From a virus: a stretch of 64,000 bases of DNA. The position numbers were made by a program, and so were the translations under genes. The stretch spans positions 1 through 64,000 of IMG/VR virus record IMGVR_UViG_3300048834_000258; one strand, given 5' to 3'. This document shows positions 6,857 through 63,846 of this stretch, piece by piece. The first letter of the stretch is position 1, and every line of letters begins with the position of its first letter. Under the pieces are notes generated by a model. That model saw only the letters and a list, made by a program, of their open reading frames with translations, ran no database searches and was not told the DNA's origin.

Positions 6857-6937
6857 GAAAAGAGGGCAGATTGGCGTCCGCCCTCTCGTCCGTTTGTGTG
6901 GCGCGAAGCGCCACGGGGGTCTACAACTAGTGTACCA
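6857..6937 (-). ncRNA. Small-RNA cassette A (promoter-hairpin-T run)
   Basis: On the minus strand an extended -10, TGGTACACT (6929-6937), is followed by GTTGTAGACC (6918-6927), a GGCGC/GCGCC hairpin (6898-6914), then a second hairpin with AGAGGG/CCCTCT-type arms (6861-6886) ending in TTTT. No ORF lies between promoter and terminator. The predicted RNA is about 65 nt. Read-through would enter the AAA+ gene, so the hairpin could instead act as its attenuator. One of eight similar elements. Confidence 0.55.
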
Positions 6938-6941
6938 CTAA

Positions 6942-6966
6942 TGGCGCGTAGCGCCAATGGTAAAAT
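6942..6966 (+). promoter_or_regulatory. Portal-gene promoter with upstream palindrome
   Basis: An extended -10, TG-G-TAAAAT (TAAAAT at 6961-6966), ends 10 bases before the portal ATG. A perfect palindrome with 6-bp arms and a GTA loop (6942-6956) lies directly upstream. No -35 box is visible. The expected start site leaves a leader of only a few bases. Confidence 0.6.
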
Positions 6967-6976
6967 AGAAGTAGCG

Positions 6977-8911
6977 ATGGCTGAAGAACTTAACGATTCC
7001 CTCGTACTTTCGACTGACCCGACTCCGGGCTACGAAGACATCACGAAGCAGCTTGCGCTGTCTCGGGTGGTGCAGACGTTCTTCAAGTACGAGACTTGGC
7101 GGCAGCGCAACTACGACCTCAAGTGGCGGCACCTCCAGGAGCTTTATAACGGGGTGGTACCCAGACGGTTCTGGGAAGGCACTACGACCGAGAGAGCTTC
7201 GCTCTCTGTGCGACTCATTCACTCCCAGGTCCAGAGCGTTCTCCCTCTTCTGCACCAAGCATTGTTTGGGTCTGACATTGAGTGGTTCAAAGTTGCCGCC
7301 ATTGGCGAGACTTCTACGCAGGAAGCAGCGGAGGTGCAAGCGCGGCTACTGTACCTGTGCGAGCACCCAACGGATCGGTTTGGGAACAATGTGCGTAACC
7401 AAGTTACGCTTACTCTCAATGATTTGCTTGTCAAAGGTATCGCCATTCTTGCTTTGCAAGTAGATCCGCTTACGCTGGAGCCTGTAGCCAATCGTATCTC
7501 GCCGCTGGACTTCTATGTCGATCCCGCTTGCGGGCCGGACATTGAACAGGCGAAATCGGTTATTTGGCGGCGCACGCTGACGCTGGATCAGGTAGAGGCA
7601 CTGCGAGGGGCCGAAGGCTTTGATATCCCCGACAGGGGGACGCTCATGGAGTGTATTCAGAGTATGCCGTCGGCTATTGCAGATACGTCCCGGCAGATGG
7701 AAGAAAGTTCGCGGGGTGTTCAGTACAATCCGCTGTCCGACGGGCAGGGTGTGTTTGGCGCGGAGAGCAATCTTGAGGTATTAGTGTACTACACCAAGAC
7801 ACGGGTTGTTTGGGTGCTTAACAGACACTACGTTATTTACAATGGCGAGAATCCGTATGGGTTCTACCCGTTTACGGCGGCGACCTGCTTCTTCGACCCG
7901 GATCGGTTCTACGGGAATGGCTATTCCGATGTACTGGCCGATTTGCAGAAGTACATGCAGTCGATTCGTAATGCGCGACTGGACGAGCTTTCGCTGGCCT
8001 TGAATCCGCCGCGAGTGACCCGCGCTTCGCACGATCAGCGCATGACGTTTTCGCAGAGAGTGTGGCGACCGGGTGCTCAGTTGGCGACCGAGAATGGCAA
8101 GGACGATATTTCGGTCCAGGTGCCGTCGAATATTACACAGAATTCATATCAAGAAGAGAGTTGGATGCAACAGCAGGCCCAGGAGATGACCGGGGTGAAC
8201 TCCATGGTCCTCCAGGGTATGCCGATGCGGGGCAATGCTTCTGCGAGTGCAACTTCGGTAGGAGCGCAGCGCGAGGCTCCGTCGTTGCGGCTGCTGATGG
8301 TGGTTCTCTCTTTGGAGAATTATCTGTTGACGCCGATGTTGTATAAGATGTTGAAGATGCACCAGATTCATAATCAGGGCGATCTTCAGTTGAGAGGTAT
8401 GACGGCGGAAGGACAGACGCCTGTTGCGAATCAAAGTTTGCAGCGCGATGTGAAGTTCATGATGTTGTCTGCAACGCGGATGATGTCACGCGAGAAGCTG
8501 TTGCAGGTGTTCCCGTTCCTGACGCAGTATTTGCTCAATCCTGAGTTGATGGGGCACTTGCAACGGATCGGACTGGCGGTTGATATGGCGGAATGGGTCC
8601 GTATGTTGCAGGACGCCAGCGGCACGAAGCAAGTGTATCAGTTGGTGCGGCCTCTCAATGAACAGGAACAGCAGGCGCTCATGCAGCCGACGCCTGAGAT
8701 GATGCAGGATCAGCAGAAGACGAAGGCATCGAACGAAGTTCGCCTCGCGATGGCGGATAAGAAGAATCAGGCCGAGCAGATGAAGGTCCAGGGCAAACTG
8801 CAAGAGGTCGATAAAAAGACCGAGGCGGACATGAAGAAAGAGATGCTGTTGGCGGTTATGCAGCGAGTGATGGGCGGCGGCAACGCCGAAGGCGGCAACA
8901 GTGGCTCTTAG
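6977..8911 (+). CDS. Portal (head-to-tail connector) protein
   Basis: 644 residues from the ATG at 6977, the first start after the promoter. Upstream in-frame codons run through the promoter and are not used. The sequence has the layout of podovirus connector-type portals: an N-terminal helical stem with many Trp/Arg, the segment DRFYGNGYSDVLADLQKYM near the middle, and a Gln/Lys/Glu-rich coiled C-terminus (about 590-640). Twelve copies would form the DNA channel at the packaging vertex and dock TerL. It is the first gene of the late head module and overlaps the next gene by 11 bases. Confidence 0.88.
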   Translation: MAEELNDSLVLSTDPTPGYEDITKQLALSRVVQTFFKYETWRQRNYDLKWRHLQELYNGVVPRRFWEGTTTERASLSVRLIHSQVQSVLPLLHQALFGSDIEWFKVAAIGETSTQEAAEVQARLLYLCEHPTDRFGNNVRNQVTLTLNDLLVKGIAILALQVDPLTLEPVANRISPLDFYVDPACGPDIEQAKSVIWRRTLTLDQVEALRGAEGFDIPDRGTLMECIQSMPSAIADTSRQMEESSRGVQYNPLSDGQGVFGAESNLEVLVYYTKTRVVWVLNRHYVIYNGENPYGFYPFTAATCFFDPDRFYGNGYSDVLADLQKYMQSIRNARLDELSLALNPPRVTRASHDQRMTFSQRVWRPGAQLATENGKDDISVQVPSNITQNSYQEESWMQQQAQEMTGVNSMVLQGMPMRGNASASATSVGAQREAPSLRLLMVVLSLENYLLTPMLYKMLKMHQIHNQGDLQLRGMTAEGQTPVANQSLQRDVKFMMLSATRMMSREKLLQVFPFLTQYLLNPELMGHLQRIGLAVDMAEWVRMLQDASGTKQVYQLVRPLNEQEQQALMQPTPEMMQDQQKTKASNEVRLAMADKKNQAEQMKVQGKLQEVDKKTEADMKKEMLLAVMQRVMGGGNAEGGNSGS

Positions 8912-9245
8912 TCCTACGGAGTTCGAGCAAGCGGGGAAAGCCCGCGACCTTGCGGACCTGTCCTCCCATCCGGGGTGGGCGGTTCTTCTGTCGGCGCTAG
9001 CCGACAAAGAGAAGCAGTTGTTGGAAGAATTGGCTTTGCTGGACGAGCCGAAGGCTATTGTGCGGGCGAAAGATCACTGGAGTATCTTCCGGCATATTGT
9101 GCAGTTTATTACCAGCGCCCCCGAGAACGCTAAGATCAATGTCTTCGACATCAAAGAGGCCGAAGGGATTGATGATAGCACTCTGACGGTAGGCGCGTTC
9201 CTCAACAAAGTCCCTTATGGATCGGATCAGTTACCTTTAGTGTAA
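8901..9245 (+). CDS. Small protein between portal and scaffold genes
   Basis: 114 residues with a GTG start at 8901 inside the portal gene. It is mostly helical, with a central charged stretch (DKEKQLLEEL) and a C-terminal half with mixed strand character. No family recognised. Position suggests a head-assembly accessory or minor capsid protein. Confidence 0.6.
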   Translation: MALSPTEFEQAGKARDLADLSSHPGWAVLLSALADKEKQLLEELALLDEPKAIVRAKDHWSIFRHIVQFITSAPENAKINVFDIKEAEGIDDSTLTVGAFLNKVPYGSDQLPLV

Positions 9246-9288
9246 ATGTTATCATGGTCTTAGGGACGATTCCCACATAGGAGAGACA

Positions 9289-10074
9289 ATGGCTACCACG
9301 CCCACTTTTGACATCAATTCCATTTCTCCGGAGAAACTGGCCGAGATTCTCGAACAGCTTCGGCAGGAAGACAATAACAATGCACCCCCGCCCCCGGCGC
9401 AGCCGCAGCCCATTAAGATCTCATTCAATGGGGTTGATTTTGTCGGCAATAGTGCCGAAGAAGTGCAGCGCCAGATCGATGTATATACACGAGCACTGGC
9501 CAATGAGCAGCACGCACGGCAGATCCAGGAAGCTACGCGCCAGCAGGCGGCCACACCGCCCGAACCGAAGGCTAAGCAGAAGAAGACGACCGAGGAGTGG
9601 GTGAACAAGTTCACCGAAGATCCGGCCGATGTGATGGACCAGGAAATGGAGCGGAAGATCGAGTCCTATCTTTCGCAGAAGTTTGGGATGCCGAACTGGG
9701 CGGAAGTTCAGAAGGCGGCGGTCCAGCAGATTGTGCAGGACAATTTGCAGAAGACCAAGAATGCGTTCTTCGAACGTAACCCGGATTTCGTGGAAGATCC
9801 CGTCAATTTGCAGGCCATCCAAGGCATCATGCAGCAGAATGGCTTGCAGCCGTCGTTGCAGGGTCTAGAGTGGGCTTGGTCCGAGGCGAAACGCCAGCAA
9901 GTTGCGCGTGTGAAGCAGGCGGAGCCGGTTGCAAGACCGACGGCCCCACTGCCGATGTTGCCTACGGGCGGCGCAAATCCGGGTAGTGATCTGTTGGATG
10001 CGTTCTATTCAACGACTGATCCGGTCAAACAGGAACAGATTTTGCGGCTCATCGAGAAGGCGCAGGCTGGCTAA
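9289..10074 (+). CDS. Scaffolding-like protein
   Basis: 261 residues, acidic and Gln-rich, with predicted coiled coils (about 12-30 and 60-90), a Pro-rich linker (NAPPPPAQPQP), and a C-terminal helix with LLDAFYSTTDP and a LRLIEKAQ end. It sits directly before the major capsid gene, where podoviruses encode the internal scaffold that guides procapsid assembly and then leaves. RBS AGGAGAG 5 bases before the ATG. Assignment rests on position and composition rather than a motif. Confidence 0.65.
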   Translation: MATTPTFDINSISPEKLAEILEQLRQEDNNNAPPPPAQPQPIKISFNGVDFVGNSAEEVQRQIDVYTRALANEQHARQIQEATRQQAATPPEPKAKQKKTTEEWVNKFTEDPADVMDQEMERKIESYLSQKFGMPNWAEVQKAAVQQIVQDNLQKTKNAFFERNPDFVEDPVNLQAIQGIMQQNGLQPSLQGLEWAWSEAKRQQVARVKQAEPVARPTAPLPMLPTGGANPGSDLLDAFYSTTDPVKQEQILRLIEKAQAG

Positions 10075-10083
10075 TGGGGGGGG

Positions 10084-10105
10084 AGGGAGGCGTAAGCCTC
10101 CCTTT
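10084..10105 (+). terminator. Rho-independent terminator before capsid gene
   Basis: Seven-base arms GGGAGGC/GCCTCCC with a GTAA loop, then TTTAT. It insulates the capsid gene, which has its own promoter 24 bases downstream. Confidence 0.65.
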
Positions 10106-10127
10106 ATCCTTAATGCTAAATTGCGTA

Positions 10128-10136
10128 TGTTACAAT
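10128..10136 (+). promoter_or_regulatory. Major capsid promoter
   Basis: An extended -10, TG-T-TACAAT, is followed by AATAAGTAGGAGG, which includes the ribosome-binding site of the capsid gene. Same architecture as the other phage promoters here (see 63871). Confidence 0.6.
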
Positions 10137-10159
10137 AATAAGTAGGAGGAACCCTTTCT

Positions 10160-11197: not shown

Positions 11198-11234
11198 TCT
11201 CTTGGCGGCGGGCGTAGGCTGGTTTCTCCTCAAT

Positions 11235-11265
11235 AGGGAGGCGTGTAAAAGCGCCTCCCTTTTTG
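11235..11265 (+). terminator. Terminator after capsid gene
   Basis: Nine-base arms AGGGAGGCG/CGCCTCCCT with a TGTAAAAG loop and a T5 run. The arms are almost the same as the terminator before the capsid gene (10084), so the capsid gene is flanked by a near-repeat. Confidence 0.85.
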
Positions 11266-11301
11266 TTTATTAGTGCGGATAATCACTTGCCGCAGGCATG
11301 G

Positions 11302-11316
11302 TAAAATAAAAGTATG
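11302..11316 (+). promoter_or_regulatory. Leaderless-type promoter of the 208-residue protein
   Basis: TG-G-TAAAAT ends at 11307, six bases before the ATG at 11314, with no Shine-Dalgarno sequence. The predicted transcription start coincides with the start codon. Confidence 0.6.
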
Positions 11317-11940: not shown

Positions 11941-11953
11941 GGGAGAGACGCCC

Positions 11954-19744: not shown

Positions 19745-20055
19745 TGTCAGCTTGCAAAGATTGCGCCAATTTCTCGGGCTTGGGGAGCTTCGCCGATGGA
19801 GCGGTGCCTAAGATCGACACATCCGAAAGGGCCGAATGGTACGCGCCTCTCAAGTGCCGCGCCAGTGTCCAACTGATCCAACTGTGGGACCCCGTGAATG
19901 GTATCATGAAGGAATGGAAAGGATACGCCAATGTCGGAGACATTAACAACGACCCCCAGCGAGACTGCCCCCTCTTCGAGCGAAGAAGTGCAGGAATCTC
20001 CCTCCAGGATAGTGCTCTCATCGCGCCACCAGCAAAACTTGAAGGAATTAGATGA
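19744..20055 (+). CDS. Small Cys-rich protein after the fibre gene
   Basis: 103 residues from the ATG in a TAATG overlap. Cys at 4, 7, 41 and 77 (ACKDCANF, PLKCRA, RDCPLF) could bind a metal ion or an Fe-S cluster. No family recognised. It overlaps the next gene by 125 bases in another frame, unusually long for this genome. Confidence 0.6.
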   Translation: MSACKDCANFSGLGSFADGAVPKIDTSERAEWYAPLKCRASVQLIQLWDPVNGIMKEWKGYANVGDINNDPQRDCPLFERRSAGISLQDSALIAPPAKLEGIR

Positions 20056-20197
20056 GTTGACGGCCAGAGCCGCAGAAGAAGCGATCCGCCCCTTCCTGGA
20101 GCGCCGCAACGGCTATCTGGCGGCTGTCATGACCGCACTCGAACTGACGGGCAACTGGGACTACGACGCACAGACCTTTACGTTCACACGTAAGTAA
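19931..20197 (+). CDS. Small acidic-to-basic helical protein
   Basis: 88 residues with a Ser/Thr/Glu-rich disordered N-terminus (1-30), a central helix and a WDYDAQTFTFTRK end. AAGGA-type RBS upstream. Its first 125 bases overlap the Cys-rich gene. Function unknown. It is the last gene before a transcription boundary carrying cassette B. Confidence 0.55.
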   Translation: MSETLTTTPSETAPSSSEEVQESPSRIVLSSRHQQNLKELDELTARAAEEAIRPFLERRNGYLAAVMTALELTGNWDYDAQTFTFTRK

Positions 20198-20204
20198 AAA
20201 GCAC

Positions 20205-20276
20205 CTACAAAACGCACAAAGGGCGGCACAATGGCCGCCTCTCTGTGTTTTGGTGGTCTACAACCAGTGTAGCATA
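20205..20276 (-). ncRNA. Small-RNA cassette B
   Basis: Minus-strand extended -10 TGCTACACT (20267-20275), then GTTGTAGACCACC, then a long hairpin with GGCGGC/GCCGCC arms and an ACGCACAAA-complement tail ending in TTTT. The predicted RNA of about 55 nt would be antisense to the gap after the plus-strand gene. The hairpin can also end rightward transcription. No ORF inside. Confidence 0.55.
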
Positions 20277-20284: not shown

Positions 20285-21073
20285 CTATTCTTCGACGTAA
20301 GTACCTTTCCACCCATAGAAGGTTACTTCTGAGCCGGGAGCCGGAATCGGAAATTTTGGATGTGTCGGAGATCCAAGGTAATCGGCCACGGCATCATACG
20401 GGATACGAATGTATCCCCGCTTGCGCGTGCCGACGATGGCTCGACGCGGTGAGCCGAGCAAACTGACACTTGTCAGGACAGTAAGATCTGCGGTGCTTAC
20501 AAACACAGAGTCAGCATTTACGCATTGCATTTCCGGCTCAATGAACTGGTTCTCCTTGAGTTTCCCCTCCGCCCGCAGCTTCGCTTCCAGCGCCGCCGCG
20601 TCGGTGATGTCCTCGCCGTACACCTGCTGCCAGTCGTTGAGCTTGTAGGCGTGAATGATTTTGAAGTTGATGCCATATTCGCCCGTGAAGTCTTGAGACA
20701 AAGTCGGTCGCCTGCCTGCGTAATGGATCACAGCAAAGGGCCGTCCCGCAGCAACGTCCCCAAACTTCGGCTTCCCATACTTCTCCGGGCAGGGGCAGTG
20801 CTTCGCCCACACGCTCTCGGGCGTAGCGCCTTCGCCGTACTTTTCCTCGATCTCGGTCAACGCCGGGGCGAGGATGAGGACAGGGGCATCACAGGGGTAA
20901 TCGTCGGAAGCGGCAATCACCCGAGGTGCCCACCTCCCTAGCCAATTCTCCCCTTTCTTGGGGGGCCGAAACGCAATTGCCCGAAAGCCGGTTGGGATCG
21001 GTGGGTTGGGGGTTCCGTACTTCTGCTCAACCGTGATCGTTTCCTCAACTTGCACTTTCCAAGGTTCAAACAT
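20285..21073 (-). CDS. Orphan protein of the FRPP paralogue family
   Basis: 262 residues, RBS GAGGAGG 5 bases from the ATG. The N-terminus carries VEETITVEQKYG followed by AFRPPKKGENWLG and PRVIAA, shared in pattern with the proteins at 50302, 28118 and 59221. The rest has no recognised family. It interrupts the plus-strand structural region as a single minus-strand unit with its own promoter (21117-21145) and cassette B downstream, the layout of a moron gene. Confidence 0.75.
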   Translation of the reverse strand: MFEPWKVQVEETITVEQKYGTPNPPIPTGFRAIAFRPPKKGENWLGRWAPRVIAASDDYPCDAPVLILAPALTEIEEKYGEGATPESVWAKHCPCPEKYGKPKFGDVAAGRPFAVIHYAGRRPTLSQDFTGEYGINFKIIHAYKLNDWQQVYGEDITDAAALEAKLRAEGKLKENQFIEPEMQCVNADSVFVSTADLTVLTSVSLLGSPRRAIVGTRKRGYIRIPYDAVADYLGSPTHPKFPIPAPGSEVTFYGWKGTYVEE

Positions 21074-25452: not shown

Positions 25453-27870
25453 ATGCCCATCATTGGCGGCGGTATTGTTTCGGAGCAAAAAGCGCAAGAG
25501 CGTGAAGAGAAATTTCGCCGGTTTCAGCAACAACTGAAACTATACAAGACCATGCCGCCCGAAGCCCGCAAGGAATTCCTCGTCAAAAAGATGGGAATGT
25601 CGGAATTGGCCGAGGTTTCTCCCGAAGAGGCGGCTTTGAAATTCGACGAGATTTACGCCAAGAAAGCGGACGCTCCAGGACCGGATCTTACTGCTAATCC
25701 TATGTGGATGATTTCTGGAACTGACCCAGTTAGCCCCGGAACTGCCGCAACCCGCCTAGGTCTAGGCACAGCGGGAGCCGCTGCTACTGCTTTTTTGCCA
25801 GGTCCCTTTAAGGGGGCTGGGATGTCTCTGCTAGCTTCGGCCCCTTTTACTTCTCCAGATTCCGCACCGGCTGATGTAGCAAGTGCTGCCGTCAATGCTA
25901 TCCCAGCGGGACGCGGCGGCTTTATTATGCAAACCCTCAAAAATATGTTTCTGGGCGGGGCCGAGGGAGTTGCCCGTAAAGCCTTTGGGGATGAACAGGC
26001 CAGTCCTGCCCTTCAAGCGGGACTAGGTGCTGCGTCAGGGCTAGCCCAAGGTACTGTGCCGTGGATGGCTCGCGCCATTCCGGGCAAGGGACGAGAGATG
26101 GCCGAAGATATACTCTTCCAGTCACGCTCCAAACTTAAGCCTGCTGGAGAAAAAGCTATTCCCCAAAAAGAAGCTGTGCGTATGCTTACTCAACGACCCG
26201 AGTACATGGCACAGGTAGACCAAGCCCTAGGCCAACCGGGCCTCGCCGCTTCCACAGCAGCCCCGGCTAGCCTTGTTCCCGAAGACGTTCTCAAGTATAT
26301 GCGAAGTTTGGAGGAAACCGCTAAGGGTAGCGTGCAAGTCGCGCCTTTGCCGAAGCGGCCCACTATCAAACCCTTCAAGGAAACACCGACCTATAATAGA
26401 GGCGTTAGTCCTCTGGCCAAAGGTACCGAAGACGAGGTAGTTGAAGAATTTATTGGAGGTGGGCGTATCACACTAGAGCCTGGAACTGCTTCAGTATCTC
26501 GTCAGTCCCTTGGAGTCGGCTTTAATCCCGACCTCATGTACACTAGACTTCTGGGGCAAATTACCCAGAATAAGAAATATGCAGTTGAAGCGCAGGCAGC
26601 TTTGCAAGCCTTGGATTACATGAACGACGCAGTATTTGGTGATGCTAAAGGGGCAGACGCTGTATTGGAAGTAGCCAATAAGCACAAGCTCTTTAGCAAT
26701 GTGAAAAATTTCCCCTCCCGTGCTTCTATCGATGCCGCTGCGGAAGATTTGGCCGAAGCCTCCAATTTTGACAAGACTTCAGCCGTTGCCGTACTTGAAC
26801 ACGCTGTTAAGTACGGACGCGGCGAAGGCACGCTCAAAAAGCTGGTGGATAAGGTCGGCAAGGAAACCGACCAAGGTATCCGCGCTCTTATTGACGAGAC
26901 TAAAATGCCGGGGGAGACAGTCGAAACTGTTATTCCGGGGCAAGCACCTAAGTTCGACCTTGCGGATAATACCGCGTATGAAATGCGCGTAGCACCTATG
27001 CGGCAGCAGGCTGCTCAGCGCACGGAAGAAGCTAATGCCAAAATCGCGGCAGAGAATGCTTTCAAACAAGAGCAAGCGCAGGTGGCCAACGCGCGAAACA
27101 TTGCGCAATTCAAGCAGAAGCTAGAAAAGTTTGACGCAATTCGCCAAACTCGTGAGAGCTTGGGGTTGCCGGGGATTCTCCCAAAAGGAGATGAACTGGC
27201 AAAGCCGATCACCTCGGGAGGAGATTCTCAGGATATTGTTCATTCTCTAGGGAAACTGTTTGAGACGGTGGAGAAAGAAATTCCCAAAGATCTTCCCCGT
27301 ACTCGTCAGTTGATGATTCAACAGATGTTGGCAAAGGTTCGAGACGCCAAACTTACTAAGGATATGGTCAAGCGTCTCAAGCCCCCGGACGGCATTGGGG
27401 TACTCCCCGACGACCAGATTGATCCTAAGACCGCAGGGCTTTCTTGGGAATACCTAAAGACGCTGACAGGCGAAACCGAAGTTCCTGACAGCCAAGCCAC
27501 GGCAGCTTTGGGCTTGTCTGCCGTGCTTCGGGACGAACAACTTCTCAACGCAATTGCCCAGGGAGACCGAGAGACTGTCTGGCTTAGTACCAAACTGTCG
27601 ATTATCGGCGTTCGTTTCCGCGAATTGCTCAAAGCCGATCCTTCGGGAGCCGTCGAACGTTACATGAAAGCCACTCCCGAGCAAATCAAAGCCATGGGCA
27701 CTCGCCTTAACACAACACTGCCCATGCTTCGTTCCGGGATGCGTGTAGGTGTGGGGGAAATATCTCGAAGTACAGAAGGCGAAGGCCAACGTCAAACCAT
27801 TCTGGACACAGTTGCCAAGAAGTTCAAGGGTGCGAAAAATCGGCAGAAGATTGTAGATCGGTTGCCTTAA
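25453..27870 (+). CDS. Internal virion / ejection protein 3
   Basis: 805 residues. A charged N-terminal helix (1-60) precedes a Gly/Ala/Pro hydrophobic segment (about 95-190) of membrane-active character. The C-terminal half is long helices with Lys/Glu repeats. Likely inner-core protein delivered at infection. No lytic transglycosylase or polymerase motif is visible, so this trio lacks the giant RNA polymerase of N4. Confidence 0.6.
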   Translation: MPIIGGGIVSEQKAQEREEKFRRFQQQLKLYKTMPPEARKEFLVKKMGMSELAEVSPEEAALKFDEIYAKKADAPGPDLTANPMWMISGTDPVSPGTAATRLGLGTAGAAATAFLPGPFKGAGMSLLASAPFTSPDSAPADVASAAVNAIPAGRGGFIMQTLKNMFLGGAEGVARKAFGDEQASPALQAGLGAASGLAQGTVPWMARAIPGKGREMAEDILFQSRSKLKPAGEKAIPQKEAVRMLTQRPEYMAQVDQALGQPGLAASTAAPASLVPEDVLKYMRSLEETAKGSVQVAPLPKRPTIKPFKETPTYNRGVSPLAKGTEDEVVEEFIGGGRITLEPGTASVSRQSLGVGFNPDLMYTRLLGQITQNKKYAVEAQAALQALDYMNDAVFGDAKGADAVLEVANKHKLFSNVKNFPSRASIDAAAEDLAEASNFDKTSAVAVLEHAVKYGRGEGTLKKLVDKVGKETDQGIRALIDETKMPGETVETVIPGQAPKFDLADNTAYEMRVAPMRQQAAQRTEEANAKIAAENAFKQEQAQVANARNIAQFKQKLEKFDAIRQTRESLGLPGILPKGDELAKPITSGGDSQDIVHSLGKLFETVEKEIPKDLPRTRQLMIQQMLAKVRDAKLTKDMVKRLKPPDGIGVLPDDQIDPKTAGLSWEYLKTLTGETEVPDSQATAALGLSAVLRDEQLLNAIAQGDRETVWLSTKLSIIGVRFRELLKADPSGAVERYMKATPEQIKAMGTRLNTTLPMLRSGMRVGVGEISRSTEGEGQRQTILDTVAKKFKGAKNRQKIVDRLP

Positions 27871-27873: not shown

Positions 27874-27950
27874 TGGTATGCTTGTTGTAGACACCAACCC
27901 CACGAGAGGACAGACGCCGACGCCCGTTGGCTCTGTCCTTTTGTGTTTTC
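27874..27950 (+). ncRNA. Small-RNA cassette C
   Basis: Plus-strand extended -10 TGGTATGCT (27874-27882), then GTTGTAGACACC, then CACGAGAGGACAG pairing with CTGTCC (27933-27938) and a TTTTGTGTTTT run. Same order as the minus-strand cassettes but in the opposite genomic direction, which shows that promoter and hairpin move as a unit. A 47-codon gene starts 28 bases after it. Confidence 0.55.
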
Positions 27951-27977
27951 TGTGCGTTTTCGATTTGGGAATAGCGA

Positions 27978-28121
27978 ATGAGACGAGTGCCTAGAAACCC
28001 CTACGTGAAGGCCGTCAAAAATAGAAGTGGCGCGGGTCCCCACAAGTTCAACCGCAAAGCGGCCCTTGCCGAAATCCGCGCCAAAGAAGCCTCCAAAGAA
28101 GCCGAACGCTGGAGGCGCTAG
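27978..28121 (+). CDS. 47-residue basic phage protein
   Basis: Short ORF MRRVPRNPYVKAV... ending ERWRR. It contains NPYVKAV and HKFNRKAAL, resembling the tiny basic phage proteins of the (N/R)xVAK...FNRxxxHxxRK type (DUF7230-like). Its stop codon lies in a hairpin shared with the end of the convergent gene. Likely nucleic-acid binding, function unknown. Resemblance judged by eye. Confidence 0.6.
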   Translation: MRRVPRNPYVKAVKNRSGAGPHKFNRKAALAEIRAKEASKEAERWRR

Positions 28122-28831: not shown

Positions 28832-29074
28832 CTATGTGAGAATGACTTTCAGTTCTTTGGCGTCTACGAGTACTTCGCGTACCGTTTCGCCAAAGTGGAT
28901 TGCGTTCACCGCGCCAAAGGCGGTGCTCTGCACCTTTACAGTGCGGAGTTGACATAATTCGCCGTCGTGGTAACGGAAGCGAGTTTGAGCGCCCAACTGG
29001 CGGCGGTCGATGTAGTAGATCGGCGCGTGGCTGGGCACTTCTTCAAGAGCTTTCAGAAGGTCGGCTTTCGTCAT
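28832..29074 (-). CDS. Small MTKADLLKAL-type protein
   Basis: 80 residues from the ATG at 29074 (a GTG 3 bases upstream is possible). Start MTKADLLKALEEVPSHAPIY resembles the common phage fold seen in the genes at 35174 and 34948 (helix, then HGDLPV- or HAPIY-type strand). It is the first gene after cassette D. Function unknown. Confidence 0.6.
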   Translation of the reverse strand: MTKADLLKALEEVPSHAPIYYIDRRQLGAQTRFRYHDGELCQLRTVKVQSTAFGAVNAIHFGETVREVLVDAKELKVILT

Positions 29075-29104: not shown

Positions 29105-29179
29105 AAATGCAAACGAAAAAGGCAGGCCACTTTCGCGGCACTGCCTCTTCCGGGGTTGGTCTACAACCAGTATAGCATA
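29105..29179 (-). ncRNA. Small-RNA cassette D
   Basis: Minus-strand extended -10 TGCTATACT (29169-29177), the closest to consensus of the set, then GTTGTAGACCAACCCCGG, then GGCAG/CTGCC arms with a T5 run (29116-29120). It starts directly behind the terminator of the replication operon and precedes a small gene, for which the hairpin may be an attenuator. Confidence 0.6.
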
Positions 29180-29220
29180 AAAAGCGAACGGCCCTCCGGG
29201 TACCAGTCGAAGGGCCGCTC
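29178..29220 (-). terminator. Terminator of the leftward replication operon
   Basis: Ten-base arms GAGCGGCCCT/AGGGCCGTTC (one G-T pair) on the minus strand with a T5 run. The T-run overlaps the start of promoter D, so termination and re-initiation are packed into 45 bases. The 125 bases between here and the helicase stop hold no gene I can support. Confidence 0.7.
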
Positions 29221-45883: not shown

Positions 45884-46381
45884 TTACAAACCAAGTTTGG
45901 CAAACGCTTCTTCGAGCGGAAGTGGTTTGTAATCATGCAGTTCCACACAAACGCAAAGGGAGTATTTGCCGAAGGGTTTGTGGGGAGTGTTGTGAACGTG
46001 TCCATAAAACAGCCCAAAGTTGGGGTTGACCTTAGGAAGGTTGGGCCGGTGTTGGGCTACTACCGGGCGCTTGCGAGTTGAGAACACATACCGATCTACT
46101 ACAGATGTAAAACCCGCTTTGAGCAGAAAGTCCGCAGGTCGATCATGGTTGCCGCGCACCAGGAAGATGCGCCCATTAAGACACTCGCGGTACTTCGCCA
46201 CATTTTCGGCCTTGCCCAGGGCAAAATCGCCCAGGTGATAGACCCAATCTTCCGGCCTTACTACGGAGTTCCAGTTGGCGATGAGGGTTTCGTCCATCTC
46301 CTCAACGGAAGAAAAAGGGCGCTGACAGTACTTGATGATATTGGTGTGCCCAAAATGGGTGTCGGAAATGATGAAGTCCAT
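45884..46381 (-). CDS. Metallophosphoesterase (phage YfcE-like type)
   Basis: 165 residues from the ATG at 46381. ISDTHFGHTNII (DxH), HLGDFALG (GD), VRGNHDRP (GNHD) and YGHVHN (GHxH) are all present. This compact type is common in phages; the substrate is unknown, possibly a phosphodiester or RNA 2',3' end. Starts 6 bases after a TATACT -10 box with no RBS. Second phosphoesterase in the window, unrelated in detail to the one at 30721. Confidence 0.85.
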   Translation of the reverse strand: MDFIISDTHFGHTNIIKYCQRPFSSVEEMDETLIANWNSVVRPEDWVYHLGDFALGKAENVAKYRECLNGRIFLVRGNHDRPADFLLKAGFTSVVDRYVFSTRKRPVVAQHRPNLPKVNPNFGLFYGHVHNTPHKPFGKYSLCVCVELHDYKPLPLEEAFAKLGL

Positions 46382-46402: not shown

Positions 46403-46478
46403 AAACGCAAAAGGAAAACGGCGGAACCGCTCTCACGGAATCCGCCGCTCTCCGGGTGGTTGCACTACTATTCTACCA
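46403..46478 (-). ncRNA. Small-RNA cassette I
   Basis: Minus-strand extended -10 TGGTAGAAT (46470-46478) overlapping the stop of the upstream gene, then AGTAGTGCAACCACC, then GGCGGA/TCCGCC arms and TTTTCCTTTTGCGTTTT. Same layout as the other cassettes. The next gene has a separate promoter, so this unit can only make a short RNA. Confidence 0.55.
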
Positions 46479-46662
46479 CGGCTTCGCCACCGAAGGTGGT
46501 ACGAAGAGTGGGAACAAAGACTTTTTCTAGGATTTGAGTGAAAGCCCAGGTGACTGATTTGTCGCCGAAGTGAGGGGCGATAGCCCCTCCGACATTGGGG
46601 CGTTTCCGCCCCGCTAGGGCCGGGTCATGAGCGGTAGCTTGGAAGGAAGGCGTTTCACTCAT
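46468..46662 (-). CDS. Small unknown protein
   Basis: 64 residues, starting 8 bases inside the end of the terminase-small-like gene. RKRPNVGGAIAPHFGDK then a hydrophobic C-terminal half (VTWAFTQILEKVFVPTL). Its last codons double as promoter I. Function unknown. Confidence 0.55.
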   Translation of the reverse strand: MSETPSFQATAHDPALAGRKRPNVGGAIAPHFGDKSVTWAFTQILEKVFVPTLRTTFGGEAVVE

Positions 46663-49784: not shown

Positions 49785-50301
49785 TTGCTATATACTATAT
49801 ACTACTATAGTTATACCTATACTCCCGTAAGGGAGTATAGGATAGTACAAATATGAAAGTATACCTTATACTGTATACTGACCGGGGCCTTCCGCTTCCG
49901 CTCGGCCCCGGAGGTAGTAGTCATACGGTTACGATTTCGCGCCTGCGGCGAGATTCGCCTCTTCTTCGCGTTAAATGGCATGTTAACTCCCGCGTTAACG
50001 GTTAAATTAACGTTCCGTTGGCTGTGCCAACCGCCGACCCCTTGCGGGATCTCTGCCGTTGCGCGGTTTCTATAGGTATAGTATAGGCACTCCACCTTCG
50101 GCACAAGGAAAAAACGCCCACGGCGCTCATTAAAATTTTTTAATGCACCGGAGGCGCACCGAAGGCACGAAAGCCCTTGTATTTTGGCGCGTCTAGCGCC
50201 AAAATAGTTGTAGACCACCACAGCGGCAGCGGGACCGCCAAGTCCCCTGTCCTGCGGTAAACCGCCCGCTTCGCGGGTTTGCAAAGCAAACGGAGGTTCC
50301 A
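49785..50301. other. AT-rich divergent control region, origin candidate
   Basis: About 560 bases between the leftward and rightward early operons without a supportable gene. It holds a run of TATA(C/G)T boxes (49787-49815, 49850-49875), a 10-bp-arm perfect palindrome CTATACTCCC/GGGAGTATAG (49817-49840), a CCGGGGCC/GGCCCCGG hairpin (about 49882-49912) and repeated TTAAC/GTTAA elements (about 49969-50012). Such clusters suit divergent promoters and a replication origin. Confidence 0.5.
50177..50220 (+). promoter_or_regulatory. Rightward early promoter (element E)
   Basis: -35 TTGTAT (50177-50182), 17-base spacer, -10 CAAAAT (50200-50205), then AGTTGTAGACCACC as in the small-RNA cassettes. The spacer forms a 9-bp-arm palindrome TTTTGGCGC/GCGCCAAAA (50182-50204). 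A CCCGC/GCGGG hairpin follows in the leader of the gene at 50302. Confidence 0.6.
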
Positions 50302-57158: not shown

Positions 57159-57539
57159 ATGCCCGCACGCACCAAAAAGACTCCCATCGTACTTGTGTAC
57201 GATCCCACCGACGAAGGACGCTTTGCTTTCTATGACGAGGGCACTCTCGCTTTCGAAGGCTCTGACGAAAACAACCACTACTTCGACTTCCTCGCCTTCT
57301 GTCAAAAGTTCAACATCCCTTACGAAGAACGCGAGATGCTCGAAGGTCTTGAAGGCGAGGAATTTCCCCGCAAACTCGAAGATCTGAAGCCGAAGGTTTC
57401 CGTTCACGTCGAAATCGATACGTGGGATGAAGCCGAATACCTGAACATCGCGACCGACGATACCGGCCTCGGTTGGGTCTCCAAAGCCGACGCCATCGAG
57501 ATCCGCGACCGTCTCGTGGAGGCCCTCGGCAAATGCTAG
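57159..57539 (+). CDS. Acidic alpha/beta protein
   Basis: 126 residues, RBS AAAGGAA. Acidic throughout; IVLVYDPTDEGRFAFYDEG then helix and a C-terminal VSKADAIEIRDRLVEAL. Unknown. Overlaps the next gene by 7 bases. Confidence 0.65.
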   Translation: MPARTKKTPIVLVYDPTDEGRFAFYDEGTLAFEGSDENNHYFDFLAFCQKFNIPYEEREMLEGLEGEEFPRKLEDLKPKVSVHVEIDTWDEAEYLNIATDDTGLGWVSKADAIEIRDRLVEALGKC

Positions 57540-57880
57540 CCACCCGAACCGAACTACCGAACGAGCCGCGCCGCTGGCGGCTCGTCTCCTCGGCCCGCGC
57601 CGAACCGGGACGCGACTTCGCCATCTACATTGACAACTACCTTTACTGCATCGGAGATGCGGGTCTCGAAGCGATTCTTCTTGAGACGAAGACTCCCTTC
57701 ATCCCCGAAATGACAGAACGGGAGAAGTTCCCCGAGTTCTTCGAAGATCTCATCCACACAACCGACATCGACATCGACTGCCTCGCGACCGACGAAGCGG
57801 CTTTTCTGCGCCTCGATGGACGCTATTACACACGCCGCCAAGCGGAGCACATCTACAACGCGCTAAAAGCGCACTTCTAA
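57533..57880 (+). CDS. Unknown protein at end of rightward unit
   Basis: 115 residues from the ATG at 57533 (ATGCTAG overlap). FAIYIDNYLYCIGDAG, an acidic middle and YYTRRQAEHIYNAL. Possibly same fold class as its neighbour. Cassette F begins right after its stop. Confidence 0.6.
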   Translation: MLATRTELPNEPRRWRLVSSARAEPGRDFAIYIDNYLYCIGDAGLEAILLETKTPFIPEMTEREKFPEFFEDLIHTTDIDIDCLATDEAAFLRLDGRYYTRRQAEHIYNALKAHF

Positions 57881-57957
57881 ACGCACAAAAGGCGGAACCA
57901 AAGCCGCTCGGCCTCGGATTCCGCCCTTCGTGTGGTGGGTCTACAACCAGTTTAACA
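57881..57957 (-). ncRNA. Small-RNA cassette F
   Basis: Minus-strand extended -10 TGTTAAACT (57949-57957), then GTTGTAGACCCACC, a hairpin with GGCGGAA/TTCCGCC core (57891-57923) and TTTTGTGCGTTT. Predicted RNA about 60 nt, antisense-facing to the plus-strand gene end. The CACACGAAG lead-in to the stem is close to that of cassettes C and G. Confidence 0.55.
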
Positions 57958-57958: not shown

Positions 57959-57986
57959 AAAAGGGGAGCCGGGTGGCTCCCCTTTT
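57959..57986. terminator. Bidirectional terminator after the minus-strand gene
   Basis: Perfect 12-base arms AAAAGGGGAGCC/GGCTCCCCTTTT with a GGGT loop. Ends leftward transcription of the gene at 58007 just before cassette F re-starts it. Confidence 0.85.
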
Positions 57987-58513: not shown

Positions 58514-58560
58514 AGTTTGGCCTCCTAGCTAGAAGTATAAGGATGCGCAATCCTACTATT

Positions 58561-58569: not shown

Positions 58570-58609
58570 TGTGCTTCGCACGCCATTAACTTTCCATAGT
58601 GGAAGGGTA

Positions 58610-58638: not shown

Positions 58639-58644
58639 GAGATT

Positions 58645-59646: not shown

Positions 59647-59673
59647 TTCGGCGCAAAGCGCCGAAGAAATAGC

Positions 59674-59760
59674 TTGACAGATTTACCGCGAAGCGGTAAA
59701 TTAGTAGTGGACCCTCCTCACGAGAGACGCCGCGATGCTTGCATCCGGCGTTTTTCGTTT
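59674..59760 (+). ncRNA. Small-RNA cassette G, with consensus -35
   Basis: -35 TTGACA (59674-59679), 17-base spacer, -10 TAAATT (59697-59702), then AGTAGTGGACCCTCCTCACGAG, then GACGCCG/CGGCGT arms and TTTTTCGTTTT. A palindrome with 9-bp arms and a GAA loop covers spacer and -10 (59681-59701). No ORF inside; the next gene has its own promoter 10 bases later. Predicted RNA about 50 nt carrying a CCTCC that could pair with GGAGG sites. Confidence 0.6.
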
Positions 59761-59769
59761 TAGTTGAAA

Positions 59770-59778
59770 TGATAAAAT
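59770..59778 (+). promoter_or_regulatory. Promoter TG-A-TAAAAT
   Basis: Extended -10 followed by AGTCATAGGAGG, shared with the promoter at 62481. Confidence 0.6.
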
Positions 59779-59798
59779 AGTCATAGGAGGCGTGTCCT

Positions 59799-60209
59799 AT
59801 GGCATTTACCTTTGTTAATGATGGGGAGCGAGTTGCCCTCGAACTTTTGCTCAACAAAACCGGGTCGTTGGCTAATACAGTTATGGGCCTGTACACCAAC
59901 AACCAGTCGATCTCTAACGCGGTTGTTTTAGGCGACTTGACCGAGGCGACTGGCAGCGGCTATAGCGCGATTACCCTTACGGGAGCCAGTTGGACGATTA
60001 CCGAGGGCGCTCCTACCAGCGCGGCTTTTCCCCAGCAGACCTTCACTTTCAGTGGAGCCATCGGTCCCATTTACGGCTACTTCATTAAGCATGGGACCAC
60101 TTTGATCGGGCTTGAGGCTTTTTCGGCTGGCCCCTATACATACACGTCAGCCGGTGGTACCCTAAAGGTGACGGTCAATTTGACCGCAGGATCTTCAACC
60201 AACGACTAG
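59799..60209 (+). CDS. Small phage structural-type protein
   Basis: 136 residues, beta-rich. MAFTFVNDGERVALELLL...LYTNN...GLYxxN-like start, ITLTGASWTITEG and GPIYGYFIKHGTT follow a family of small phage virion proteins found near fibres. Likely virion-associated. Expressed by its own promoter. Confidence 0.65.
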   Translation: MAFTFVNDGERVALELLLNKTGSLANTVMGLYTNNQSISNAVVLGDLTEATGSGYSAITLTGASWTITEGAPTSAAFPQQTFTFSGAIGPIYGYFIKHGTTLIGLEAFSAGPYTYTSAGGTLKVTVNLTAGSSTND

Positions 60210-60216
60210 GAGACGC

Positions 60217-60597
60217 ATGAGACACACCTTCTTCCTTCTCTGGGCCGTCCTTTTGACGGCCCTTCTTTTGCCCGCGCAGACCGCACAGCGCAAGGTGACC
60301 CTTAATTGGGATCACCCAGACGCGAACGTCACGTTCAACGCCTACATTTCTCCTGGAGATTGCCTGACGACTCCGACGTTTGTGAAGCACAACACCGCGC
60401 CCATCACGGCGAAGACCTATGAGATTACGGGGCTTGCCGAGGGCACGTACTGTTTCGCGGTGCGAGCCGAGCGGGACACGCTGGAGTCTGGAAACAGTAA
60501 CTTGGCCAGTGCCATTGTTGGCCCGCCGCCCGTCGTTCCTGGCGCTCCGACCGGGCTTAGCTTGAGCGTGTCGGTGACGGTAACCGTTAACCCCTAA
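60217..60597 (+). CDS. Exported protein with fibronectin III-like domain
   Basis: 126 residues. MRHTFFLLWAVLLTALLLPAQ is a clear signal peptide, unusual beside virion genes. The mature part is one FN3-like domain (LNWDHPDANVTFNAYIS ... YEITGLAEGTYCFAVRA) and a Pro-rich tail. It may be placed in the host envelope or periplasm, or its signal peptide may be retained. TAATG overlap with the next gene. Confidence 0.65.
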   Translation: MRHTFFLLWAVLLTALLLPAQTAQRKVTLNWDHPDANVTFNAYISPGDCLTTPTFVKHNTAPITAKTYEITGLAEGTYCFAVRAERDTLESGNSNLASAIVGPPPVVPGAPTGLSLSVSVTVTVNP

Positions 60598-62198
60598 TGC
60601 GCGTACTGATCGCTCTCTTGTGGGTGGCACTGGCGTTCGCGCAGCCGGTGCCGCCTACTAACCTTCGGGCGTCTACCAAACCCATGGCCACTTTCGTACA
60701 AGGCGCAGTTCCCACATCGGCGGCAGATCCGATCAGTTGCACGTTCTCTTCGGCTCCGACCGAGGGAAATCTGCTGATTGCGGCGATGTCCGAGCGGAGC
60801 GGGAATAGCACGACAAACCACACCATCAGTGGAAGCGGCTGGACAAAGCGGGTGGGGCGTGATGTGTCGCTACCATCGGGCGACAATAGACGCACCCTCA
60901 CGATCTGGACGAAAGTAGCGGGAGCCTCAGAGCCGTCTACCATCACAATGGATGATGGCGGGTCCGGTACATCAAAAAACGGTTTCGTCGCAGAGTACGC
61001 GCTGGAGAGCGGCGAAGACACCTGGGAATTTCTGGAAGCCGTATCAAACGACAACGGGGAAACCGATAACGCCACGAGTCTAGCCACCGGGACCACATCG
61101 TCGTTGTCTGGCACGCAGATGGTGGTGTTTGGCGTTGGATCGATGAAGGCGGCGAGCGGCGCTCCATCGGGCCATACCTGGGCGTCCGCGACGTTGACTG
61201 CTAATGTCAGTTCCTACCCGAGTGGCTTGGGCAGCTACGGGATGTGGCTCGGCATCGCGTCCGCGAACAGTGATAGCGCGGGGACGAAAGCCTCCACGAT
61301 GACGATGGGTGGCGGCCCGTCGAATGACGGGCTTACCGCTGCGATCCTGGTTTTCAATTTGGTGAGTGGCGGAGGTGGCGACGATTACACCCACTCTGGT
61401 ACCGGAGCTTTAGCCCTTTCTGGTTCCAATACCACAGTTCTAGACACCATTGTAAGCTCTTCTGGCAACCTAGCCGTTTCGGGCACTACCGGGATTGTGC
61501 TAGAGGCCATTGTCACCACTTCGGGGGCATTGACATTTACGGGGAGTCACGCTGCGGTCCTTGAAGCCATCGCAGCCGTTTCCGGCAACTTGACGCTATC
61601 TGGTAGTGCGGCTGTTGCACCTGATTGGGTAGTTAGTAGCTCCGGTGGTTTTCTATTAGGCGGCACGGGAGAACCTGTGCCCGGCTTCGATCTACTGGGA
61701 ACCGGGGCGCTTTCCCTGGGCGGCTCCGTCAGCGTAGAGTTTACCGAATCTGGCGATATTGTGTACTCCGGTACTGGCCATCTAGCCCTAGCCGGTGCTG
61801 CCTCCATTGTCCTAGACGCGATCACCTCTCAGTCGGGCAACCTCGCTTTAGGAGGCTCGGGCGCTATCGCCCCCGACTTCCTCATTGCGGGTACGGGGGC
61901 TCTCAGCTTAGCGGGTAGTTCGGCGCTTGTGCCCGAGTTTGTGCTTACGCCCTCGGGCAATTTGGCCCTAAGTGGCTCGATTGCGACTGAAGCTAACTTT
62001 GTCGTGGCGGTTTCGGGCGACCTGGAGTTGGGCGGAACGGCAGTCGTTGCGTATACCGGCCCCGTCTCTACGCAAGTAGCAACTTCTACAATTGTAGTAG
62101 TTCCGTGTGTGGCTACCGTGGTAAAATTAGATCATAGGACTGTTTTACTGCTACAGAAGCCCCGCACGGAGGTCTCTTTATGGAAAGACATCACGTAG
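60597..62198 (+). CDS. Exported repeat-rich adhesin/fibre-like protein
   Basis: 533 residues. Signal peptide MRVLIALLWVALAFAQP. Domain about 30-260 with PTEGNLLIAAMSE... reads as a jelly-roll type domain. Residues about 265-490 are ten or more repeats of roughly 22 residues (consensus SGxLALSGSxxVxxDxIVSx), a beta-solenoid. The C-terminal VKLDHRTVLLLQK ends the protein. With the gene before it, a pair of signal-peptide surface proteins inside a phage operon. Confidence 0.65.
   Translation: MRVLIALLWVALAFAQPVPPTNLRASTKPMATFVQGAVPTSAADPISCTFSSAPTEGNLLIAAMSERSGNSTTNHTISGSGWTKRVGRDVSLPSGDNRRTLTIWTKVAGASEPSTITMDDGGSGTSKNGFVAEYALESGEDTWEFLEAVSNDNGETDNATSLATGTTSSLSGTQMVVFGVGSMKAASGAPSGHTWASATLTANVSSYPSGLGSYGMWLGIASANSDSAGTKASTMTMGGGPSNDGLTAAILVFNLVSGGGGDDYTHSGTGALALSGSNTTVLDTIVSSSGNLAVSGTTGIVLEAIVTTSGALTFTGSHAAVLEAIAAVSGNLTLSGSAAVAPDWVVSSSGGFLLGGTGEPVPGFDLLGTGALSLGGSVSVEFTESGDIVYSGTGHLALAGAASIVLDAITSQSGNLALGGSGAIAPDFLIAGTGALSLAGSSALVPEFVLTPSGNLALSGSIATEANFVVAVSGDLELGGTAVVAYTGPVSTQVATSTIVVVPCVATVVKLDHRTVLLLQKPRTEVSLWKDIT
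62119..62127 (+). promoter_or_regulatory. Internal promoter TG-G-TAAAAT
   Basis: Located inside the end of the repeat gene, followed by TAGATCATAGGA; drives the 99-residue gene at 62180. Confidence 0.5.
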
Positions 62199-62479
62199 TT
62201 AAGGATACTAAATGCCGTCTTACCTGCACTTTCTACGACATTTCGAACGCGCTGGCCGATCCTACCACAGTGACCTTCTCGATTAAGCTGCCTGCGGGCA
62301 CGACCACCACATACACCTACGGAACCGATGCGGAGTTGGTGCGGTCTTCGACTGGTGTTTACTACGTGGATTTCCTGTTTAACGCCAAAGGCGCGTACAT
62401 TTACCGCTTTCTGGGTGCTGGTTCGGTGGGTGCGCCGGGTGAGGGTACCGTGGACGTTGCCGAGAGTGCTCTAGCCTAA
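62180..62479 (+). CDS. Ig-like small phage protein
   Basis: 99 residues, CGGAGG upstream. ADPTTVTFSIKLPAGTTTTYTYG and STGVYYVDFLFNAKGAYIYRFLG are the strands of a single beta-sandwich common in phage virion accessory proteins. Overlaps the repeat gene by 19 bases. Confidence 0.7.
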   Translation: MERHHVVKDTKCRLTCTFYDISNALADPTTVTFSIKLPAGTTTTYTYGTDAELVRSSTGVYYVDFLFNAKGAYIYRFLGAGSVGAPGEGTVDVAESALA

Positions 62480-62480
62480 A

Positions 62481-62489
62481 TGCTAAAAT
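62481..62489 (+). promoter_or_regulatory. Lysis-block promoter TG-C-TAAAAT
   Basis: Extended -10 followed by AGTCATAGGAG; heads the holin-like, endolysin-like, Acb2-like and second membrane genes. Confidence 0.6.
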
Positions 62490-62509
62490 AGTCATAGGAG
62501 ACTGAACCT

Positions 62510-62785
62510 ATGGCCTTTTTGCAGATTTTCGCTTTGATTCCCGTCCTCTGGGAACTTCTGGAGCGCATCATCAAGACTGTTGAGACCGAGGAGCTTCCTG
62601 GGTCTGAGAAGAAGCAGCTTGCGCTCGACGCGCTCAAATCCCTGGTCGAAGTAGTTGGGTCGATCCCTGGCGTGAAGGGCAAATTCTCTGCCGACTTTGT
62701 GGTCAACCTCGCTATCCCTATCATTGACATTGTTGTTGGCATTTTCAATGCCATCGGCATCTTCCGCAAGAAACCTGCCGCCTAA
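62510..62785 (+). CDS. Holin-like membrane protein
   Basis: 91 residues. Two hydrophobic stretches (about 3-20 and 66-84) flank a charged central helix (EKKQLALDALKSLVEVVG), ending in Lys. It lies first in the lysis block, directly before an endolysin-like gene. A holin role (timed membrane permeabilisation) is inferred from topology and position. Confidence 0.6.
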   Translation: MAFLQIFALIPVLWELLERIIKTVETEELPGSEKKQLALDALKSLVEVVGSIPGVKGKFSADFVVNLAIPIIDIVVGIFNAIGIFRKKPAA

Positions 62786-62807
62786 AGGCAGTGCCGGGAC
62801 TTCGACC

Positions 62808-63353
62808 ATGACGCGCACAGAACTTATTTCCATGATGGCGGATGCCATCGAAATCAAGGAGGGGTACCACGCTAGACCGGGGCACCCCGACTATCCGACC
62901 ATTCCGCAGCAGCTTTGTAACCCTGGCAACGTTCGGCGCTGGAGTGCCAAGCATCCGACAGCTTACGGTTACATCGACTTCTATCAATGGGAGTTGAACA
63001 AGACCGGCTCGGTCGAGCCGCTTATGCCGCGCCGCCCTGTTCGGTCTGCCTCCAAAAAGCAGCGCCGCGAAACCTTAGATAAAATTCTAAGCGAAATGGC
63101 GAAGCGGCCCGCAGAGCGCGTCCGTTCGGCCCAAGCCGAAGGTCGCAGGGTGCTCGAAGCACTGATCGGCCAGTACATTGACGGGAAGTACACGAACGGG
63201 AAGTCGCCTTCGATGCTCGGCATGTTCCAGGTGTACGCGCCGTCTTCGGACGGCAACGAGCCGTTCACTTACGCGCAGTTTGTAGGAGAACGGTGCGGGT
63301 TCGACCGCAAGACGATTATGGAAACGCCTCTAAAGGAGTTAGTTAGTGACTAA
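62808..63353 (+). CDS. Endolysin / lysozyme-like protein
   Basis: 181 residues from the ATG at 62808 (weak RBS). IEIKEGY (likely catalytic Glu17), LCNPGNVRRW and later VYAPSSDGNEPFTYAQFV follow phage peptidoglycan hydrolases of the NPGN type. A basic helical insert (about 75-115) lies between. No signal peptide, so it depends on a holin. Overlaps the next gene by 8 bases. Confidence 0.7.
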   Translation: MTRTELISMMADAIEIKEGYHARPGHPDYPTIPQQLCNPGNVRRWSAKHPTAYGYIDFYQWELNKTGSVEPLMPRRPVRSASKKQRRETLDKILSEMAKRPAERVRSAQAEGRRVLEALIGQYIDGKYTNGKSPSMLGMFQVYAPSSDGNEPFTYAQFVGERCGFDRKTIMETPLKELVSD

Positions 63354-63567
63354 CGAACATCTCGACCGAATTTTTACCTACCGCGCCCCTTTCGGGGATC
63401 AGCCGGAAAGGTACGTCAAGATTAGGCAAGCCGCCAAAGATTTCGCGCAATTGGTGCAGGATGCGTGTCCCGAATCTCGGGAGAAATCCACTGCTCTGAC
63501 AAACATTCAACAGGCGGTGATGTGGGCAAATGCCAGCATCGCCATCAACGAGGAGCAAAGCTCATGA
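63346..63567 (+). CDS. acb2: Acb2/Tad-hairpin-like anti-CBASS sponge
   Basis: 73 residues, GTG start with AAAGGAG upstream. FTYRAPFGDQPERYVKIR, AAKDFAQLVQDACPESRE and ALTNIQQAVMWANASIAIN match the Acb2 family pattern (FTYHPP...YxxIRxxAKxxA...CPxSxExxxAxxxxxxAVMxANAxIA). Acb2 hexamers sequester cyclic oligonucleotide signals, blocking CBASS. Its position between endolysin and a holin-like gene is frequent in this family. Recognised by pattern, not by search. Confidence 0.8.
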   Translation: MTNEHLDRIFTYRAPFGDQPERYVKIRQAAKDFAQLVQDACPESREKSTALTNIQQAVMWANASIAINEEQSS

Positions 63568-63770
63568 GTAAATTCACTGAATGGTTGGAGGGCGAGGGTG
63601 CCAAGATCTTTACGATGAGCGCCCTTTGTCTGGTGTTTTTCGCGGCGGAAGTGGCGATCAAGGTTTGGGTGCCGGAGAGCGAGCAGCTTCAGGGGCAGAT
63701 CGGCTCGATTGCCGCTGGCTTTGGCGGAGCGTTGCTCGCGATCCTACGACCTCCGCAGGCGACGAAATAA
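63564..63770 (+). CDS. Second small membrane protein, holin-like
   Basis: 68 residues from the ATG at 63564 (ATGA overlap). Hydrophobic segments about 14-33 and 45-62 with a short acidic loop make a class II holin topology. It may be the true holin, or an antiholin to the protein at 62510. Confidence 0.6.
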   Translation: MSKFTEWLEGEGAKIFTMSALCLVFFAAEVAIKVWVPESEQLQGQIGSIAAGFGGALLAILRPPQATK

Positions 63771-63773
63771 CGG

Positions 63774-63846
63774 CGAAAACTCAAAACCCCAGACGACCGT
63801 CCGCATTGCGGAGCGGCCATCCTGGGGTCTACAACTAGTCTAACAC
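63774..63846 (-). ncRNA. Small-RNA cassette H
   Basis: Minus-strand extended -10 TGTTAGACT (63837-63845), then GTTGTAGACC, then a hairpin with CCCCAG/CTGGGG outer arms (63786-63827) and TTTTGAGTTTT. Lies between the lysis block and the next late promoter; transcribed antisense-wards into the end of the lysis block. Confidence 0.55.

Follow-up and report, generated by a model that had tools for sequence, protein, structure and literature searches.

Conserved promoter-hairpin units in a phage genome as candidate genes for short non-coding RNAs

What, if anything, is encoded by the short cassettes of promoter and hairpin that lie scattered over the phage record IMGVR_UViG_3300048834_000258? A first-pass annotation of bases 1-64000 of this 73,567-base IMG/VR record (the stretch analysed here, hereafter the window) had described eight such cassettes, six pointing leftward and two rightward, and had proposed that they are autonomous small-RNA genes. 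Direct reading located all eight, in the orientations given, and recovered in each of them an extended -10 element, GT(T/A)GT(A/G), an ACC-type start, an A/C-rich stretch, a hairpin and T-runs. Promoter and hairpin were indeed in register, each promoter block being coupled to a hairpin on the matching strand and, eight times, to a terminator. A ninth unit (I), missed in the first pass, was found by a promoter matrix in whose training it had no part [Table 1]. Our favoured reading, to which we give an even chance of being right, is that the cassettes are stand-alone units for short non-coding RNAs acting mainly by shape.

Anatomy of the cassettes

The extended -10 element of the cassettes reads TGnTAnnnT, except in G, where CGGTAAATT is accompanied by a TTGACA -35 element. 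To score these promoters, a 20-column matrix covering the promoter and the first RNA bases was built from the eight cassettes, with reversed sequence as the control. The eight cassettes scored 20-30 bits, against no more than 13.8 bits in reversed sequence (no more than 12.3 for this phage in a repeat run). The same matrix was applied to the one long relative of the phage, IMGVR_UViG_3300048587_000332 (G001; 61,847 bases, capsid protein 90% identical), which had not been used in training, and returned nine matching units at 21.7-29.6 bits versus at most 13.7 in the reversed sequence. The block GTTGTAGACC is present in six exact copies in the 73.6-kb record, all of them within cassettes.

A second class of promoter lies directly before genes and consists of TGnTA(A/C)AAT followed by NNNGTAGGAGG (consensus TGnTA(A/C)AATAnnnGTAGGAGG, without a -35 element). 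Unlike the cassettes, these ordinary gene promoters have very short leaders, the start being followed directly by the Shine-Dalgarno site. Both classes have GTAG soon after the -10; an extended -10 combined with GTAG was counted 10 times in one phage and 11 in the other, and was absent from both reversed sequences. The (G/A)GT(T/A)GTAG-ACC start noted in the first pass is present, but its GT(T/A)GTAG part is mostly a promoter discriminator and not an RNA motif, since ordinary gene promoters share the GTAG. Within GTAGACC, the A or G should be the first base of the predicted RNA. The cassettes differ from the ordinary promoters in having TAnACT, in most of them, and a predicted RNA that begins with GACC and stays A/C-rich.

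The ACGAGAGG-like lead-in of the earlier description was likewise found, although it is not single-stranded: it forms the outer 5' arm of a long stem and pairs with CCUUUUGUG, so that the first T-run lies inside the stem. In cassette C, CACGAGAGG pairs with CCUUUUGUG; the corresponding arms are CGGAAGAGG and CCUUUUUCG in D, and GGAGAGCGG and CCGUUUUCC in E. The first U-run is accordingly part of the helix, and the second T-run (CGTTTT) makes the tail. Each of the eight U-bearing units has one or two G.U pairs in the outer stem, and the opposite DNA strand of the stems reads CTCTC, with no T-run. Because the G.U pairs leave that strand without a U-run, the cassette terminators should be one-directional; by contrast, an A-run/T-run terminator of the same phage (57963-57982) scored on both strands. 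An intrinsic terminator was predicted in eight of the nine units, the exception being I. Among the copies tested, fold z-scores ranged from -3.6 to -7.1 for A-F and H and were weaker for G (-1.8 and -2.5) and I (-2.1), the stretches used having cut off part of G and H. The first-pass annotation had placed no open reading frame inside the cassettes, but the -10 of E overlaps the stop end of the open reading frame 46468-46662.

Table 1 Promoter-hairpin units and ordinary gene promoters of the phage, with predicted starts and genomic setting
Feature	Position	Strand	Predicted elements	Predicted transcription start	Context
Cassette A	6855-6937	-	promoter TGGTACACT, extra GC hairpin, then terminator hairpin	~6922	upstream of AAA ATPase gene 5754-6824(-), no other visible promoter
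Cassette B	20203-20274	-	promoter TGCTACACT, terminator	~20259	between convergent genes 20285-21073(-) and 19931-20197(+)
Cassette C	27874-27953	+	promoter TGGTATGCT, terminator; fold z -7.0	~27889	after gene 25453-27870(+), before open reading frame 27978-28121(+) of 47 amino acids, 98% conserved in G001
Cassette D	29106-29177	-	promoter TGCTATACT, terminator	~29162	separate terminator directly upstream near 29188; gene 28832-29074(-) downstream
Cassette E	46403-46478	-	promoter TGGTAGAAT, terminator	~46463	next gene 45884-46381(-) has own TATACT promoter placed for leaderless start
Cassette F	57882-57957	-	promoter TGTTAAACT, terminator	~57942	bidirectional terminator directly upstream (57963-57982); antisense to 3' flank of gene 57533-57880(+)
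Cassette G	59694-59759	+	TTGACA/TAAATT promoter, CCUCC-bearing leader, terminator	~59709	gene 59799-60209(+) has own promoter at 59770
Cassette H	63780-63845	-	promoter TGTTAGACT, terminator	~63830	antisense unit between genes 63564-63770(+) and 63903-64184(+)
Unit I	50197-50274	+	same promoter discriminator, AGACCACC start, conserved bulged hairpin, no U-tract		
Ordinary gene promoter (example)	6958-6977	+	TGGTAAAATAGAAGTAGC		back to back with cassette A
Ordinary gene promoters	10128+, 11299+, 12837+, 21146+, 31812-, 58569-, 59770+, 62481+, 63871+ and others				

Two further features of these regions were observed. The start codons of genes 45884-46381 and 28832-29074 coincide with the transcription start expected after a -10 (TATACTGCGTTTATG; CGAAACTGGTTTTGTGATG), and both genes may be transcribed as leaderless mRNAs. 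Small GC palindromes of the GGCGC-TTCG/TACG-GCGCC type recur between genes (6880-6960, 50170-50275 and 59660-59720), one of them interrupting the cassette A leader and others overlapping the -10 of G and I.

Conservation and occurrence

The first-pass annotation had staked its proposal on the pairing of promoter with hairpin being conserved in related phages, and both are kept in G001 in all nine units. Between the two phages the cassettes are identical at 611 of 677 positions (90%), compared with 707 of 1227 four-fold synonymous sites (58%; the count leaves out one row) in neighbouring genes and the capsid gene. Identity is complete in cassette A and amounts to 69 of 78 positions in unit I, and cassette G is conserved although both of its flanking genes differ in G001. 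Base pairing was counted on pairs of orthologous cassettes, as stem lengths differ among cassettes and make a MAFFT alignment of all of them unsuited to a covariance model. G001 keeps 145 of the 163 pairs predicted for this phage; 10 others have changed and still pair, and 8 are broken, five of these in H, whose two copies align poorly; the hairpin of H, strongly changed between the phages, still folds (-33.4 kcal/mol here and -32.6 in G001). Differences ahead of the hairpin, in the A/C-rich stretch, are mostly exchanges of A and C. This pattern therefore points to selection for the promoter, the unstructured A/C-rich tail and the shape of the hairpin, whose sequence can apparently turn over.

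As far as the collections show, the family appears confined to this small phage group. Three short fragments (L035, L036 and L041) also carry cassette A. A pattern scan of IMG/VR placed the units in this group only, the other matches having different downstream sequence, no such unit and, for the most part, a coding-like character. Distant relatives (1.15 Mb), 20 whole records of other relatives, the isolates Tunturi_1 and Tunturi_3 and two Acidobacteriota genomes gave no match above chance. Nor did the promoter block exceed chance in Acidobacteriota contigs totalling 1.2 Mb, and neither Tunturi_1 nor Tunturi_3 contains an extended -10 combined with GTAG. Closer relatives were sought with the primase-like and 804-amino-acid proteins as queries, which retrieved the same record only. 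The window had no match to a known Rfam family at the gathering score or at E<=1. A mobile repeat was rejected, the hairpins differing among copies and only promoter and layout being common.

The host is probably an acidobacterium, a member of the soil Acidobacteriota, because the GenBank phage closest to it in capsid and terminase is Tunturiibacter phage Tunturi_3 (capsid identity 29%) and because the AAA ATPase 5754-6824 has its closest counterparts among genomes in Acidobacteriota proteins (58% identity). Proteins encoded in the window include a terminase, head-tail adaptor/portal and major head proteins, a DNA polymerase, a primase/helicase and recombination proteins; no RNA polymerase or sigma factor was among the families listed for the phage proteins. 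Single matches to the Acb2/Tad1 hairpin domain and to Gad1 (Gabija anti-defence) were also seen among the 72 window proteins, as was an IS66 transposase C-terminal element. In the 1001-amino-acid protein 2752-5757, the terminase large subunit domain is confined to the C-terminal half, and the N-terminal portion is similar to helicase or DarB-like proteins of phages.

Candidate functions

Transcription of the units, its termination and the action of the products are inferred here from sequence anatomy, conservation and predicted folds. On the reading that we favour, host RNA polymerase, most likely with the housekeeping sigma factor, would start at the extended -10 promoter and produce an RNA beginning with (A/G)GACC, followed by 8-14 A/C-rich unpaired bases. 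In eight of the nine units the polymerase would stop after ~45-70 nucleotides at the long hairpin, whose 3' arm, with the first U-run, would pair through A-U and G.U with the GAGAGG-like arm, the second U-run coming after. Because the hairpin sequence turns over and its shape is kept, action by shape would be likelier than action through a fixed pairing seed, and the product may be a small RNA or may serve to decoy an RNA-binding protein. More speculatively, and as an idea that we advance with little confidence, the units could form a new multi-copy family of hairpin RNAs acting in trans by shape, for example through sequestering an RNA-binding protein, a ribonuclease or an immune sensor of the host; hairpin sequences would then drift freely, and promoter, A/C-rich tail and stem would be kept.

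Pairing of the C-rich leaders with phage Shine-Dalgarno sites, as first suggested, was not borne out as a general function: the mean duplex energies of the leaders with start regions were no better than those of random DNA or shuffled leaders, and complementary runs to phage start regions numbered 113, against 117 in the reversed control. The CCUCC-bearing leader of G was the only one to exceed these controls; the other eight did not. Several observations speak against our favoured reading. No target of the cassette RNAs was found among the phage translation-start regions, and unit I is devoid of a U-tract. Covariation comes down to one double-sided change, a thin support because there are only two long genomes, and a conserved shape with changing sequence would also be expected of a pure terminator. 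Finally, A and C lie directly upstream of conserved genes, 5754-6824(-) and 27978-28121(+), neither of which has another visible promoter, a leader-like position.

These two positions suit conditional leaders, or attenuators, in which the promoter belongs to the gene that follows, premature termination is the default, and an antiterminator of phage or host, or leakage, allows read-through. D and E also precede conserved genes, that after D having at most a weak promoter, and genes under Q or AlpA control have just such a promoter with a terminator close by (PMC6606751, PMC7969949). Elsewhere the contexts differ, even though the cassettes do lie at transcription-unit boundaries as had been claimed: B and F point into convergent genes, H runs antisense between two genes of the opposite strand, and all three are perfectly antisense to the downstream flank (a possible 3' untranslated region) of the gene they face. 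Read-through from these units would serve no gene, and leader function therefore cannot cover them. The gene after E has its own promoter, as does, in this phage only, the gene after G, which is a different one in G001. The cassettes share no DNA element in the region before the -10 to which Q and AlpA bind, and the best 25 Pfam/PHROG families listed include no antiterminator, most genes being without a match. Attenuation thus seems doubtful for the family as a whole and a real alternative for A and C, which could be attenuated leaders, whereas the proposal of autonomous small-RNA genes is the best reading for most cassettes.

It is unlikely that the units are insulators, in which a strong promoter with a built-in stop would hold polymerase at unit boundaries and block traffic from neighbours, the RNA being a by-product. 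Every unit does lie at a boundary, with B, C and F at operon ends and H firing against its neighbours. However, separate terminators stand upstream of D and F, their T-run touching the -10 of the cassette, and that of F is bidirectional, so that a boundary terminator would be redundant there; elsewhere the phage uses ordinary terminators without promoters, and conservation reaches into the RNA start. A two-way form of the insulator suggested in the first-pass annotation is improbable for the further reason that the G.U-bearing stems provide no U-run on the other strand. Least of all do we expect the asymmetric TANACTNGTTGTAGACC block to be a dispersed repressor-binding site of the operator or stoperator kind, as in mycobacteriophage L5. 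The block is asymmetric, repeated and located at unit boundaries, and the ParA-type partition ATPase gene at 71574-72575 of the record (not found in the G001 record) suggests a plasmid-like or temperate phage state. Yet it reads as a promoter, ordinary gene promoters having both TGnTAnnnT and GTAG, suitably spaced from their leaders, it is always coupled to a strand-matched hairpin, and no repressor was recognised among the listed Pfam/PHROG families. With G kept despite changed neighbours, D and F behind terminators, and B, F and H facing genes, most units therefore appear to be stand-alone, in line with short non-coding RNAs.

Relation to known systems

To our knowledge, known phage small RNAs are mostly single loci. 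Nine paralogous promoter-hairpin units under clear constraint would represent a new kind of regulatory layer in phages. The first-pass annotation knew of no described phage small-RNA family of this form, and open-access titles and abstracts likewise yielded no multi-copy phage family of this kind, which is not proof of absence. Few phages have been isolated for the Acidobacteriota, a major phylum of soil; the cassettes give precise predicted start and stop sites and a usable promoter consensus for this poorly known group of phages and hosts.

The put RNA of HK022, an element carried by early phage transcripts, exerts its effect on transcription (PMC9378689); put suppresses termination, whereas the cassette structure is itself terminator-like and varies in sequence among copies. 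The stoperators of Cluster A mycobacteriophages are likewise asymmetric and lie scattered over short gaps between genes (PMC9283540); they are described as 13-bp repressor sites without a paired hairpin, whereas the cassettes join promoter, RNA start and hairpin. Promoters under Q or AlpA antitermination, too, are closely followed by an intrinsic terminator (PMC6606751, PMC7969949); unlike them, the cassettes differ in their upstream sequences, with no element shared before the -10 and no antiterminator gene recognised among the families listed, and three of the units lead to no gene. The nearest described layout is that of the lambda OOP RNA (pO-oop-tO), a short non-coding RNA that has its own promoter and a terminator hairpin and runs antisense to the end of the gene next to it (PMC5869508), a layout that B, F and H resemble. 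By sequence, a promoter of its own lies directly upstream in each of the nine units of both phages, and a terminator is predicted in eight of the nine. OOP is a single locus, whereas here nine related units, several of them antisense to no gene, have a common promoter and predicted RNA start.

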